Both the position numbers and the translations under genes were made by a program. DNA of 20,430 bases from a virus: positions 1 through 20,430 of IMG/VR virus record IMGVR_UViG_3300037090_000138; one strand, given 5' to 3'. Below the pieces are notes generated by a model that saw only the letters and a program-made list of their open reading frames with translations, was not told the origin of the DNA and made no database searches. Every line of letters starts with the position of its first letter. Position 1 is the first letter of the stretch. Below, one piece after another: positions 13,055-20,430 of the stretch.

Positions 13055-13086
13055 AGAGCGCAGGCGGCCAGGCCTGCGCTCTTTTT
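13055..13086 (+). terminator. Intrinsic terminator of the late operon
   Basis: AGAGCGCAGGC (13055-13065) pairs over 11 bases with GCCTGCGCTCT (13072-13082) around a six-base loop, followed by T13082-T13086. It lies 24 bases after the cysteine peptidase gene and ends the rightward late transcript. Confidence 0.88.
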
Positions 13087-13090
13087 AGAG

Positions 13091-13120
13091 ACTCGAACGG
13101 ACTCGAACGGACTCGAACGT
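13091..13120. repeat. Three tandem 10-base repeats
   Basis: ACTCGAACGG, ACTCGAACGG and ACTCGAACGT follow one another without spacing. They sit between the two palindrome/terminator units and near the putative attachment site. Possible iteron-like binding sites; a 10-base period would place them on one face of the helix. Confidence 0.75.
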
Positions 13121-13139
13121 TTGGGAAAATTATGCTGAG

Positions 13140-13155
13140 CGTTTCTGTAGAAACG
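13140..13155. repeat. Palindrome, copy 2
   Basis: CGTTTCTGTAGAAACG has the same 7-base arms (CGTTTCT/AGAAACG) as the copy at 13031-13046 and differs only in one central base. Both are preceded by AG and followed by GT, so identity extends beyond the palindrome. Confidence 0.7.
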
Positions 13156-13166
13156 GTCGAATCATA

Positions 13167-13197
13167 AGAGCGCAACCCTGGCCGGCTGCGCTCTTTT
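13167..13197 (+). terminator. Second terminator-like hairpin
   Basis: AGAGCGCA (13167-13174) pairs with TGCGCTCT (13187-13194), 12-base loop, followed by TTT and A. The stem arms match the outer arms of the first terminator, so this appears to be a duplicated unit together with the palindrome 12 bases upstream. Confidence 0.7.
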
Positions 13198-13533: not shown

Positions 13534-13968
13534 ATGCCTGTCCCTACTATTACAAAATCTAAAGTCCAGAAGGCGCGCAGTCTGTTAAATATGATGTATA
13601 AGCCGGCCGATATCGCCGAAGATCTTGGTATCACCGTAGATACTTTACATAGGTCTTACCTCCCGGCTGGGGCGCCTTGCATGAAAGATACGAAGGGAAA
13701 TATCTGGATCCACGGCGAATCATTTGCCAGATGGGCCAAGATTTATTTAGAGAATCGAAGGCCGCATGGACGGGCCAGGGTATTAAAACAGAAGATGCTG
13801 GACGACCAGGTTTATTGCCTAAAATGCAATGAGGTAGTACAGCCAGTGGAACTGCATACCAGCCGGCCGAATGGGCATGGTGTTGCTAACCGGTATGGGA
13901 AATGCCCACAATGTGGACATAAGGTTTTTCGCTTTATCAAGGCTGAACCTAAAAAGGAGGTTGGATGA
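13534..13968 (+). CDS. HTH protein with C-terminal zinc ribbon, integrase partner
   Basis: 144 residues from ATG 13534 (GTG at 13528 is the alternative; AAGG at 13525-13528 supports the ATG). Residues ~8-50 look like a helix-turn-helix (KARSLLNMMYKPADIAEDLG then ITVDTLHRSYLPAGAP), followed by a wing-like 'WIHGESFARWAK', as in excisionase/MerR-like DNA-binding proteins. Near the end are two Cys pairs, CLKC and CPQC, about 30 residues apart: a zinc ribbon. The stop overlaps the integrase start, so it is co-translated and may act as a directionality factor, target-site cofactor or regulator of int. Exact role unknown. Confidence 0.72.
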   Translation: MPVPTITKSKVQKARSLLNMMYKPADIAEDLGITVDTLHRSYLPAGAPCMKDTKGNIWIHGESFARWAKIYLENRRPHGRARVLKQKMLDDQVYCLKCNEVVQPVELHTSRPNGHGVANRYGKCPQCGHKVFRFIKAEPKKEVG

Positions 13969-15041
13969 TCAATTACAACAATTATCTGGATGTGAAAGAT
14001 TTTTTGAATTTTCAGAAAGATTTAAAACAGAACGATCCGCACACAGTGGTAGGTTATTGGTACCGACTGGTCCATTTATTGAAATGGGCAGATGAAAATT
14101 CGTTGATGAAGGCAGGTGCGATCCGGCCGGCTTTCCCAGCCTATCTGGAAAAATTAAAGACAAATAAAGACAACTTGCTCAGCTCGAGCGGTTTCACGGC
14201 GATCTGCAAGACGGGACGAGCTTTCTTTTTATGGGCCAAGGCGGAGTTTCCTGGTCGCTACCGGTCTATCGACAATAACTGGATTTTGTCAATCCGGCCG
14301 CCAAGAGCTCGCCGCGAGGAATCGGAACTGCACACACGATTATTATATACGGTAGAAGAAGCAATCAAGCTGGCGACCTTCCCGGTCACTTTTTTAAGCG
14401 AGCACAGGACTCAGGCGGCAGTGGCGCTGCTGTTCCTGTCGGGGATGCGCATCGGGGCATTTATGAGTTTGCCGATCAATTGCGTCGATCTGGAGCACAT
14501 GCGGATTTTCCAACTTCCCGAACGAGGGGTAATGACCAAAAACCGCAAAGCGGCAATTACCACATTATTAAATATTCCCGAATTATTGAAGGTGGTACGA
14601 ACCTGGGATATCTATGTAAGGGAAAAGCTGGATGATGGTTTATGCTGGTATCCTCACATGGATTCGTACAGCGGTTTTTTACCAGAGGATTCGATCAACC
14701 GGGAAGCTTTGGCCAATCGGAGGATTGATTTTTGCGATAGTTTGCGAAATCTGTGCAATATGGCCGGTATGGAATATAGATCGGCGCATAAGTTTAGAAA
14801 CGGCCATGCGGTCTACGCGCTGAAACATTGTCAAACGATGTCCCAATTCAAGAGCGTTTCGCAGAATCTGATGCATTCGACGATTGGGATAACAGATGGT
14901 GTATATGGCAACCTTGTGCGGGATGACGTACATGATACGATTTTGGGTCTTTCCAAGAATTTAGATAAGCCGGCCACCGATTCCCAGCTGCAGGCGATAT
15001 TCGAGGAAATGATCCGGAAATATACGAAAGAAAAGGAATAA
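13965..15041 (+). CDS. int: Tyrosine site-specific recombinase (integrase)
   Basis: 358 residues. The catalytic set is visible: Arg162 in LSGMRIGAFMSL, a candidate Lys192 in the beta-hairpin, His275/Arg278 in SAHKFRNGHAVY, His304 in LMHSTIGIT and nucleophile Tyr314 in DGVYGNL. Residues ~5-110 are the SAM-like core-binding domain (YNNYLDVKDFLNFQKDL ... FFLWAKAEF). No clear arm-binding domain precedes it. AAAGGAGG (13952-13959) is a strong ribosome site; the ATG overlaps the preceding stop. It would recombine phage attP with host attB. Converges with the lipoprotein gene, with nine bases between the two stops. Confidence 0.9.
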   Translation: MINYNNYLDVKDFLNFQKDLKQNDPHTVVGYWYRLVHLLKWADENSLMKAGAIRPAFPAYLEKLKTNKDNLLSSSGFTAICKTGRAFFLWAKAEFPGRYRSIDNNWILSIRPPRARREESELHTRLLYTVEEAIKLATFPVTFLSEHRTQAAVALLFLSGMRIGAFMSLPINCVDLEHMRIFQLPERGVMTKNRKAAITTLLNIPELLKVVRTWDIYVREKLDDGLCWYPHMDSYSGFLPEDSINREALANRRIDFCDSLRNLCNMAGMEYRSAHKFRNGHAVYALKHCQTMSQFKSVSQNLMHSTIGITDGVYGNLVRDDVHDTILGLSKNLDKPATDSQLQAIFEEMIRKYTKEKE

Positions 15042-18071: not shown

Positions 18072-18206
18072 ATGGCGCATAAACCTTCAAGCACAGATTG
18101 GGCAGCCTGGTTTCTGATGGCGATGGCGGCGGTCCTGGCCTGCGTGATCATCGGCAGCCAGGTCGGCGTCTGGTTGGGCTATGCCATTGCGGCGGGAATG
18201 CATTAA
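18072..18206 (+). CDS. 44-residue membrane protein
   Basis: ATG 18072 to TAA 18204-18206, preceded by AAAGGA (about 18055-18060). After a polar start (MAHKPSSTDW) it is almost entirely hydrophobic and Gly/Ala-rich (AAWFLMAMAAVLACVIIGSQ, VGVWLGYAIAAGMH), enough for one long or two short spans. The stop is followed by AAGGAGG, the ribosome site of the next gene. Function unknown. Confidence 0.6.
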   Translation: MAHKPSSTDWAAWFLMAMAAVLACVIIGSQVGVWLGYAIAAGMH

Positions 18207-18214
18207 GGAGGCGC

Positions 18215-18886
18215 ATGCCAAAGAAATATTCGGAAGCATCCACAGAAGTGATCCACCTGGCTGAGGACCTGATCAGCAAATATCATCCGGCGCTCGAAGA
18301 AGCGCGCATCGCCTTCGTCTTCCAGGATAATGGCACCGGAAGACAAGACCGGGTCGAGTTGGCCAAGACTTCTAAGATCCAGGCGAAGATGCAACCGCTG
18401 CTGGAATACGATTTCCTGATCGTCATCACCGAGGATCAATATATGCGTATATCCAGTAAAGCACGTGAAGCGCTGATAGAACACGAATTATGTCATTGCG
18501 GCGGCGACGCGTCGAACGGCTGGAAGATACGCCATCACGATATTGAGGAGTTTCGGGAGGTGATCGAAAGGTATGGCGCCTGGAACATTGATCTTGCTAA
18601 AGATCTTCAATCCATTATGCAGCCAGGCCTGCCAGGCACCGAAATGGTTGCTCTGCCTACCAAACAGGGCACAGTCGCCACTTTAGATGGGCAACAATTG
18701 GCGCTCCTTTCGAAGAACCCTTTAAAAATCGTGACCGATTTCAAGGATGAGCTCCTCGAGGAAGTCCGCAAGTTCAAGGCAGAAGAAGGGGAAATCTCAG
18801 TCAGTAAACTTCAACGAAAATTCAAGATCAGTTATCCCAGGGCAAGAAGTCTGATGGATTTGATGGAGACTGCCAATGGCCAATAA
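18215..18886 (+). CDS. Phage metallopeptidase-like protein fused to an FtsK-gamma-like winged helix
   Basis: 223 residues from ATG 18215 with AAGGAGG before it; longer forms starting at 18098 overlap the membrane protein. Residues ~1-125 are of the putative phage metallopeptidase type: EHELCH at 89-94 gives the HExxH zinc motif (His90, Glu91, His94), and GWKIRHHDIEEFREVIERYG carries likely third-ligand residues. Residues ~178-222 (VSKLQRKFKISYPRARSLMD) closely resemble the gamma winged helix of FtsK, which reads specific DNA motifs. The combination suggests a DNA-guided or DNA-bound peptidase in early infection. Substrate unknown. It overlaps the next gene by 11 bases. Confidence 0.72.
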   Translation: MPKKYSEASTEVIHLAEDLISKYHPALEEARIAFVFQDNGTGRQDRVELAKTSKIQAKMQPLLEYDFLIVITEDQYMRISSKAREALIEHELCHCGGDASNGWKIRHHDIEEFREVIERYGAWNIDLAKDLQSIMQPGLPGTEMVALPTKQGTVATLDGQQLALLSKNPLKIVTDFKDELLEEVRKFKAEEGEISVSKLQRKFKISYPRARSLMDLMETANGQ

Positions 18887-19289
18887 ACTCTACGACGAGG
18901 AGATCCGGCAAATGGAGCCCGGTATAGTGCGGGCGGTGCTGAAAGTGCTATCTTCTTTCCACATCGGGAAGGAAAACACGATCAAGCGCTTGGACCTGGC
19001 CGAGGATCTACGCCGGATGGGGTTTGGGTCCGACCTGATCCCATTGACGTTCGACCGGCACATGCGGGCAGCCATCGCTGAGCTGCGCAAGGACGGCCAC
19101 CTGGTATGCAGCTCATCCGGAGACGGCGGTTATTACCTGGCCAGGGACCGGGCGGAGTACGATGAGTTCTCCCAGGTGGAATACCGCTCGAAGATCACCG
19201 ACATGGCGGAAACCCTGCGGGCGATGGACCAGGCAGCCGCCAGGCGCTTTGGCAACGATACACCGGCAGAACAGTTGAGCCTGATATGA
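18876..19289 (+). CDS. Winged-helix DNA-binding protein of the replication segment
   Basis: 137 residues. ATG 18876 lies in the end of the preceding gene (GGAG at 18864-18867 as ribosome site) and the stop overlaps the next ATG (ATGA), so expression is coupled. Residues ~15-90 have a winged-helix layout: helix, 'TIKRLDLAEDLRRMGFGSDL', recognition helix 'FDRHMRAAIAELRKDGHLVC' and a wing 'SSGDGGYYLARD'. The C-terminal ~45 residues are helical (YRSKITDMAETLRAMDQAAA). It resembles small helper proteins next to phage replication initiators. Precise role unknown. Confidence 0.62.
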   Translation: MANKLYDEEIRQMEPGIVRAVLKVLSSFHIGKENTIKRLDLAEDLRRMGFGSDLIPLTFDRHMRAAIAELRKDGHLVCSSSGDGGYYLARDRAEYDEFSQVEYRSKITDMAETLRAMDQAAARRFGNDTPAEQLSLI

Positions 19290-20014
19290 AAGATGAGTTC
19301 TATTTCACGATTGACCTGGTCAGGGATCTCAAGCCAAATAGTGCAAAAATTTTATTATTACTTATCCTTTCTGCCCAGCCACAGAATGCAAAATATTTGG
19401 AGGATTTTAGTCAATTGAGCGATAAAACGGTGGCTAAGGCCCTCCGAGATCTCGAACATAGAAGGCTAGTCACCCGAAATGGCCGCTATTCCTGGCAGCT
19501 TTCGACTTATGCAACTCAACTTCCGCTCATGGCTCAGACGAGGTTAGAACCTCCAGCCGGCGCAGATGAAGCATGCGATCCATCGCCCATAGCTTTGACC
19601 GGCGCCCCTGCGGGTCCGGTAGCCGGCGACGATCCCGAAAGTAATGCCAGTGAAGAGAAAGGGGAGTCGGAGAATTTCCGACTCGGAATTTCCGACTCCT
19701 CTAGTAGTAGTAGATCTTTAATTAAAGATTCCAAGAATCCAGTTAAAGATCTACCACTAGCTAGTAGGCCTGACCCGGAAATTCTCCGAGTCCTTTTGGC
19801 GGCGATGGACGAATGGGGAATACGTGAGCCGGCGCGTTCTGACATTGCCAGGATGCCAGGGATGACCCTGGCGCGCATAGATTATCACTGCGGCACAAGA
19901 GATAACTCGGGCCACGTGATTCCTAGGGGCCAGGCGATTTACCGGATTAAGAATAATTGGCCGTATAAGGAAACTGATGAATATGAAGATCCCGTTCCTG
20001 GTGGAGATTATTAA
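19286..20014 (+). CDS. Winged-helix replication initiator-like protein
   Basis: 242 residues. Residues ~15-70 are a winged helix (SAKILLLLILSAQPQNAKYL, QLSDKTVAKALRDLEHRRLV). Residues ~85-160 are a flexible Pro/Ala then Ser/acidic linker. Residues ~163-235 are a small helical domain (PDPEILRVLLAAMDEWGIRE ... IDYHCGTRD) ending in 'YRIKNNWPYKE'. The layout (N-terminal DNA-binding domain, linker, C-terminal domain) and the repeat array encoded in the linker (19663-19793) match lambda O-type initiators, whose gene contains the origin. No helicase follows in the window; ParB does. Name is an inference from layout and context. Confidence 0.58.
   Translation: MKDEFYFTIDLVRDLKPNSAKILLLLILSAQPQNAKYLEDFSQLSDKTVAKALRDLEHRRLVTRNGRYSWQLSTYATQLPLMAQTRLEPPAGADEACDPSPIALTGAPAGPVAGDDPESNASEEKGESENFRLGISDSSSSSRSLIKDSKNPVKDLPLASRPDPEILRVLLAAMDEWGIREPARSDIARMPGMTLARIDYHCGTRDNSGHVIPRGQAIYRIKNNWPYKETDEYEDPVPGGDY
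19663..19793. other. Nested repeat array inside the initiator gene, candidate replication origin
   Basis: Two tandem 14-base units, GAATTTCCGACTCG and GAATTTCCGACTCC, at 19672-19699. Outer inverted arms GGAGTCGGAGAATTTCC (19663-19679) and GGAAATTCTCCGAGTCC (19777-19793) match 16 of 17. Inner arms TAGTAGTAGATCTTTAA (about 19704-19720) and TTAAAGATCTACCACTA (19743-19759) also match 16 of 17, and ATCTTTAATTAAAGAT (about 19714-19729) is a perfect palindrome in an AT-rich core. This is the iteron-plus-AT-rich plan of a phage origin. Confidence 0.65.
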
Positions 20015-20063: not shown

Positions 20064-20430
20064 ATGGCGGTAATCCCATTAAGCAAAATTGTTGCTAACC
20101 CAGAGCAGCCCCGGAAAGAATTCGATCCGGACGAACTGCAATCCCTGGCCGCATCGATCAAAAAGCACGACCTGATCAACCCGATCAGCGTCGAGCAAGC
20201 TGGCGATTTATATATCCTGATCGACGGCGACCGGCGGGTCAGGGCGGCGCGCATGGCCGGCCTGACTGAGATCGAGGCCAGTGTCCGCCCATCGATGGAC
20301 GGCGGCGGCCAGCGTGAGCGCCTGCTATTGGCCATGACTGCCAACCTGCAGCGCACGGATTTCAACCCAATCGAGGAGGCGCAGGCTTATAAACGCATGC
20401 GCGAGCTGGGCATGACCAACGTTGTGATTT
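20064..20430 (+). CDS. ParB/Spo0J-family protein, N-terminal part
   Basis: 122 residues are visible; the gene runs off the window. The ParB N-terminal domain is clear: IPLSKIVANPEQPRKEFDPD, then 'ELQSLAASIKKHDLINPISV', the nucleotide-binding motif region 'LIDGDRRVRAARMAGL' and 'ANLQRTDFNPIEEAQAYKRM'. ParB proteins bind parS-like sites and, in the chromosomal class, hydrolyse CTP; phage members may partition extrachromosomal prophages or regulate genes. GAGGA at 20056-20060 precedes the ATG. The 49-base gap after the initiator gene holds no other gene, and no ParA is seen upstream. Confidence 0.88.
   Translation, partial: MAVIPLSKIVANPEQPRKEFDPDELQSLAASIKKHDLINPISVEQAGDLYILIDGDRRVRAARMAGLTEIEASVRPSMDGGGQRERLLLAMTANLQRTDFNPIEEAQAYKRMRELGMTNVVI

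Follow-up and report, generated by a model that had tools for sequence, protein, structure and literature searches.

A probable phage replication origin within the linker-coding segment of a putative winged-helix initiator gene

In phage lambda, the origin (ori-lambda) lies inside the O gene: its iterons are 18-bp hyphenated inverted repeats, each bound by an O dimer, an AT-rich part adjoins them, and the O protein comprises a DNA-binding N-terminal domain, a flexible linker and a C-terminal helicase-recruiting part (PMC6022878). Plasmids of the repABC type carry oriV within repC, with an A+T-rich central stretch in which silent changes impair replication (PMC3155836), and an origin inside repA has been suggested for extrachromosomal mycobacteriophage RepA-parABS prophages, where no repeats were found (PMC7157519). 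Concerning smaller recognition elements, the DnaA-trio has the consensus 3'-GAT-5' (PMC8287927), and TnnT motifs are bound by DnaD (PMC10201434). The locus described here is found in a viral record (IMGVR_UViG_3300037090_000138 of IMG/VR); the whole stretch analysed, of 20,430 nucleotides, will be referred to as the window. A sequence-only reading had pointed to origin-like nested inverted repeats inside the coding sequence of an initiator. From the comparison with related loci, we consider this segment a probable origin of replication, used by the phage or by a plasmid-like prophage form of it and placed inside the gene for its own initiator.

The putative initiator is encoded on the plus strand (19286-20014) by an ORF of 242 aa, with an N-terminal winged helix, a disordered linker and a C-terminal helical domain. 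AlphaFold2 predicts helices at residues 9-58, strands at 62-72, disorder at about 78-162 (pLDDT about 40-50) and helices at 164-222. The winged-helix DNA-binding domain (residues 9-76; 19310-19513, plus strand), delimited by AlphaFold2 and fold search, resembles MarR/ArsR/TubR-like wHTH folds (best E 0.005), and its predicted recognition helix starts with an SDK motif (19418-19426, plus strand), whose D/E-K pair ([DE]K) co-segregates with CGGA..TCCG sites. Pfam matches of the window protein are weak, and no Pfam match to O-type, DnaD or phage replisome organizer families was obtained. PHROG matches are also weak (phrog_270, replication initiation, E 0.007; phrog_678, O-like, E 0.05), and the window protein as query found no matches in phage, plasmid and GTDB protein collections. 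The term initiator is nonetheless supported by the C-terminal DnaA domain I predicted in several homologues and, weakly, by the PHROG matches.

The nested inverted arms and the central 16-base palindrome proposed at 19663-19793 were all recovered at those positions. The inner left arm TAGTAGTAGATCTTTAA (19705-19721) and the inner right arm TTAAAGATCTACCACTA (19743-19759), both given on the plus strand, are complementary at 16/17 positions, as had been claimed for both pairs; the repeat search refined the outer pair (19663-19680 and 19776-19793) to 17/18. The palindrome ATCTTTAATTAAAGAT, read from the sequence, occupies 19714-19729. Each outer arm is itself a hyphenated palindrome of about 21 bp, and for this reason the two are mutually complementary: GAGTCGGAGAATTTCCGACTC on the left (19664-19684, with its CGGA-N5-TCCG core at 19668-19680) and GACCCGGAAATTCTCCGAGTC on the right (19772-19792, core 19776-19788). 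A second, overlapping left site, GACTCGGAATTTCCGACTC (19680-19698), has a CGGA-N3-TCCG core at 19684-19694, and together with GAGTCGGAGAATTTCCGACTC constitutes the tandem 14-mers of the earlier reading, which the repeat search returned as 13-mers at 19672 and 19686 with a period of 14. The nested arms are, on this dissection, two predicted palindromic protein-binding sites around an inverted-repeat core. The pattern CGGARNNNYTCCG occurs three times in the window against 0.1 expected, two of them in the repeat segment. The AT-rich character is confirmed as well, since the core (19699-19770), a candidate unwinding element, has 36% GC against 49% in the gene and 54% in the window. Among 1000 synonymous-codon shuffles of the gene, one contained a single 16/17 arm pair and none contained two. 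The repeats are genuine and exceed chance by far. They fall in the predicted-disordered linker, Ser-rich in the window as had been proposed, the final ~20 bases extending into the next helix. Comparable arms elsewhere in the 20.4-kb window were found only at 13056-13193, a region upstream of the integrase gene (13965-15041) in which three direct copies of ACTCGAACGG are enclosed by two GC-rich, terminator-like hairpins that face one another.

Relatives were collected by protein and by DNA pattern. Protein searches of viral contigs gave L003, which shows zero differences from the window over the 6145 bp shared, then L004 (42% identity), then L009 and L010; L008 was found by DNA pattern. The pattern of two sites 57-87 bp apart returned 32 contigs, in the majority of which the sites lie inside a homologous winged-helix gene. 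A protein-only search with the winged-helix profile A3, useful for viral contigs only (another profile, A2, was too heterogeneous to be searched by back-translation), gave 21 loci; six had not been found before, and linker sites occur in every one of these. Across 396 genomes from the class to which Chloroflexi bacterium GWB2_49_20 belongs, a protein-only search found matches in 11 genomes. By similarity, the window gene is a member of a winged-helix family present in phage contigs and Chloroflexi-class genomes, and at least some phages of the group seem to come from Chloroflexi-type bacteria, the host group being taken only from these genome matches. Several candidates were discarded: the exact-pattern matches (CTAGTAGTAGATCTTTAA) in L005 and L006 lie in an unrelated portal-like gene and are due to chance; those of L011, L020, L037 and L039 look like chance or other repeats; and those in Butyrivibrio, Tannerella, Sorangium, Okeania, Mogibacterium and Thermoguttaceae apparently are the same.

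Palindromes of the CGGA-N5-TCCG type (N3 in L086) are present in the linker of 36/36 members with a [DE]K recognition helix, usually as one to three left sites and one right site around the AT-rich core. The distance between left and right sites is mostly 76-108 bp, many being at 90; in many members the left site is doubled or tripled at 16-bp intervals, and L012 and L013 carry ten iteron-like copies each. The palindrome is read in codon phases 0, 1 and 2, giving peptides such as RNNSDS, ESENFRL and GETPT, and the linker peptide is not conserved across the family. Synonymous-site conservation, one of the checks that had been proposed, was assessed through shuffling: 31 genes hold 89 CGGA-N5-TCCG sites against 7.0 expected, an excess of about 13-fold. 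On these comparisons, the linker segment is conserved as DNA and not as protein. The earlier proposal that the protein sequence yields to DNA function is thus supported by the 36/36 occurrence, the three phases, the excess over synonymous shuffling and the co-variation with the recognition helix. The alternative that selection for a flexible Ser-rich linker made the DNA repetitive by chance has next to no probability: the segment does encode such a sequence in the window, but synonymous shuffles fail to reproduce the repeats, all three frames are used to read the site and the linker peptide shows no conservation, so that coding chance is refuted as a full explanation.

Among 43 members, sites occur in 36/36 with [DE]K and in 1/7 without it (a single N3 match), with a Fisher p of 1e-6 that overstates independence because the members are related; many of the 36 were, moreover, first found through the DNA pattern. 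Restricted to members first found by protein only, the figures are 10/10 with [DE]K and 1/7 without. Where [DE]K is missing, different palindromes or repeats are present: three copies of GCGAGGGATGAAAATCATCCCTCGC in L084, GAAAGCGATT words in L090, two copies of GTAAATTTTACCCACC in L091 and inverted GGAGGGCGATTTT in L085. Site and recognition helix therefore co-vary, and the loss of repeats in relatives keeping the protein, named earlier as an observation that would speak against an origin, was not seen, since the distant members lacking the site have these other elements instead. Most simply, this would mean that the outer sites are bound by the winged helix. The inverted-repeat core is still present in L084, L085, L090, L091 and L092.

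This core recurs in the family with different arms (TAGTAG.., TTATTA.., TGTTGTT.., TTGATTGA..; further examples are TAGTAGTAGATC, TTATTATTATTACTACCTCC, CTTATTACTACT, TGTTGTTAATGT and TTAAGTAAGGAAGTAGTAGT). The combined p for the core inverted repeat, over 26 members and with relatedness kept in, is 6e-24 by synonymous shuffles and 1e-20 by codon permutation; in L009, L025, L035 and L068 the repeat has no individual significance. In AT-richness, the median core ranks within the uppermost 1% of stretches at its own locus. Pairing of the arms is kept while their letters change, as would be expected of a secondary structure.

DnaA domain I contacts the DnaB helicase and other DnaA molecules. The C-terminus of the L057 protein corresponds to this N-terminal domain of DnaA (PF11638, E 1.3e-9), and that of L023 likewise, below the Pfam cut-off; the assignment in relatives is also found by structure match (PDB 4tps, E 3.4e-5, TM 0.79, rmsd 1.2). 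The window protein lacks the domain. DnaB (DnaB_C) was found in 0/30 records, which may be fragments, and on this count the helicase would have to come from the host; the listed neighbour families likewise include no helicase, primase or polymerase. In L022, L067, L068 and L073, an outer site has a perfect DnaA box, TTATCCACA, no more than 30 bp away, and the window contains no DnaA box (TTWTNCACA) anywhere. The change in GC skew that had been proposed as a check is absent at the site, both in the window and across 17 loci; the missing switch may perhaps be expected where genes are co-directional.

Some related sequences show further arrangements. In Chloroflexi bacterium GWB2_49_20, L067 (360-900), L073 (160-366) and L068 (78-788) contain 2-3 tandem origin-like units, each with DnaA boxes in the form TTATCCACA-GG-TTTTCCACA, situated behind the disrupted gene for a different winged-helix protein; in 3/4 contigs the tandem units are near the contig end, as assembly-breaking repeats would be. 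The notion that the L067 copies are purely non-coding was dropped, because every unit keeps one open frame, and the guess of a replisome organiser for the L067 gene was also abandoned, there being no Pfam match. Furthermore, arrays of CCGGAATTATTCCGG with 45-bp spacing and G-rich words between them occur at L014 2531-2633, L030 5046-5148 and L036 3469-3616, in viral contigs without the initiator's winged-helix family; they possibly represent another origin or an operator array.

Taken as an origin, the segment could work as follows. A winged-helix dimer would bind the palindromes of about 21 bp (CGGA-N3/5-TCCG) flanking the core, and binding at both ends would strain and open the AT-rich stretch. 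The core inverted repeat might then extrude as a cruciform or present single-stranded hairpins, serving as a helicase-loading platform. The C-terminal part of the initiator would recruit host DnaB, in several relatives with its DnaA-domain-I module; in the window phage a partner might do so instead. A more ambitious version is possible but, in our judgement, less likely than not: a one-gene portable replicon whose single ORF is both initiator and origin, in which site and specificity co-evolve and a DnaA domain I acquired from the host initiator captures the host helicase. Its core would evolve as secondary structure, forming a loading platform of the cruciform or hairpin kind, and some members might instead have divergent arrays resembling DnaA-trios.

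The neighbourhood of the gene raises the main competing explanation, that of a partition centromere with parS-like palindromes bound by the adjacent ParB, or by the winged-helix protein itself in the manner of TubR/AspA. A ParB-like gene directly follows the initiator in the window (20064-20430, plus strand, running off the window) and in L003, where its counterpart of 287 aa precedes a second ParB-like gene; similar arrangements are seen in L017 and L018, and a partition role is possible on account of these adjoining genes. The fold search also lists the centromere-binding winged helices TubR and AspA, among many others. However, HTH_ParB is present in 11/30 records, all 30 of them with sites, and the remaining 19 lack ParB, several being 30-40 kb long, although records may be fragments. 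Besides, co-variation links the sites to the recognition helix encoded by the very gene that contains them, relatives carry DnaA domain I, and a centromere needs no AT-rich inverted-repeat core within a coding sequence. We therefore regard a centromere as unlikely. The genes around the initiator in relatives also include integrase, ParA/ParB, SSB and virion genes. Shortly before the window initiator lie a gene for a 137-aa protein and, at 18203-18886, an unusual fusion in which an FtsK gamma domain (PF09397, E 2e-12) is joined to a putative phage metallopeptidase (PF18894, E 5e-28). In FtsK, the gamma domain reads KOPS and activates XerCD. In several loci, ThiF, prokaryotic E2 and JAB-type genes (ubiquitin-like modification) are found near the initiator, e.g., L058:4689-5699.

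Regulation without any replication role, with the protein binding inside its own gene for autoregulation by road-block or by looping of sites about 90 bp apart, is quite unlikely. A MarR/ArsR-type winged helix with palindromic sites is typical of repressors, and two sites 76-108 bp apart could loop. Nevertheless, the sites are mid-gene and not at promoters, no promoter-like match was found within the segment, and the motif is nearly absent elsewhere: 30 whole records contain 86 copies, mostly within the initiator gene, against 2 of a reversed control pattern. An operator also leaves unexplained the DnaA domain I of the relatives and the AT-rich, co-varying core.

Very improbable is a function as RNA, either an mRNA hairpin or an antisense RNA acting on translation, stability or attenuation. 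The folding z-scores of the segment are indeed strong (-9.6 as DNA, -10.4 as RNA), and the inner arms still pair despite their changed sequence. Against this, the outer sites act as units, forming tandem pairs 16 bp apart and ten-copy arrays without nesting; inner-arm mismatches on the coding strand are more often A-C (30) than G-T (20), the opposite of a G-U tolerant mRNA hairpin, with codon bias as a confounder; and no meaningful Rfam family match was obtained.

Database searches returned no annotated or experimentally studied relative and no matching phage or plasmid record, a literature search on Chloroflexota prophage replication found nothing relevant, and the replication of Chloroflexota phages thus seems unstudied. 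The family offers a clear comparative case of a DNA function overriding protein coding, together with a natural series in which changes of the site and of the recognition helix go hand in hand. If the origin reading is true, synonymous recoding of ~130 bp should abolish replication although the protein stays unaltered. Compact candidate origin-initiator cassettes might also serve as replicons in Chloroflexota, for which we know of few genetic tools.

The described systems resemble this family in different respects. With lambda O and ori-lambda it would share an origin inside the initiator gene, palindromic sites, an AT-rich stretch and a linker between DNA-binding and partner-binding halves. 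The earlier comparison to lambda O holds for the proposed mode of working and the anatomy, but not for family membership, there being no convincing sequence relation (phrog_678, E 0.05 for the window; phrog_391, E 0.004 for one member). The layout also differs, as the sites flank the core on both sides whereas lambda has four direct iterons on one side, and the helicase contact would be DnaA domain I in the relatives where lambda uses its P protein. We know of no co-varying inverted repeat of this kind in ori-lambda. With repC/oriV the family would have in common an origin within the initiator coding sequence, an A+T-rich stretch and linked partition genes; the window, however, lacks the upstream repA-repB order of repABC, ParB being downstream in the window and L003, and palindromic sites flanking the core are added to what is reported for oriV as an A+T-rich region. 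The mycobacteriophage RepA-parABS prophages are alike in having an HTH initiator beside partition genes, a likeness by description; the window virus also has an integrase. As for the DnaA-trio, the AT-rich core contains 5'-TAG-3' runs, within an xAx trinucleotide run (TAGTAGTAG), and the other strand matches the DnaD-bound TnnT, the TAG runs being on both strands because they lie within inverted arms. Some members have other triplets (GTT, ATG) or the tetramer TTGA instead of TAG; since orientation and word vary across members, DnaA-trio recognition is only a possible contribution, and as the sole explanation it was rejected because triplet orientation is not conserved. The basal unwinding system joins a DnaA box to the DnaA-trio, whereas the box is missing from the window and stands beside an outer site in the four loci cited above; the DnaA domain I of the relatives is a further likeness to that system. 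The best reading of these comparisons is that of an initiator gene with an internal origin, like lambda O or repC/oriV, which would nonetheless belong to a different family and follow a different layout.
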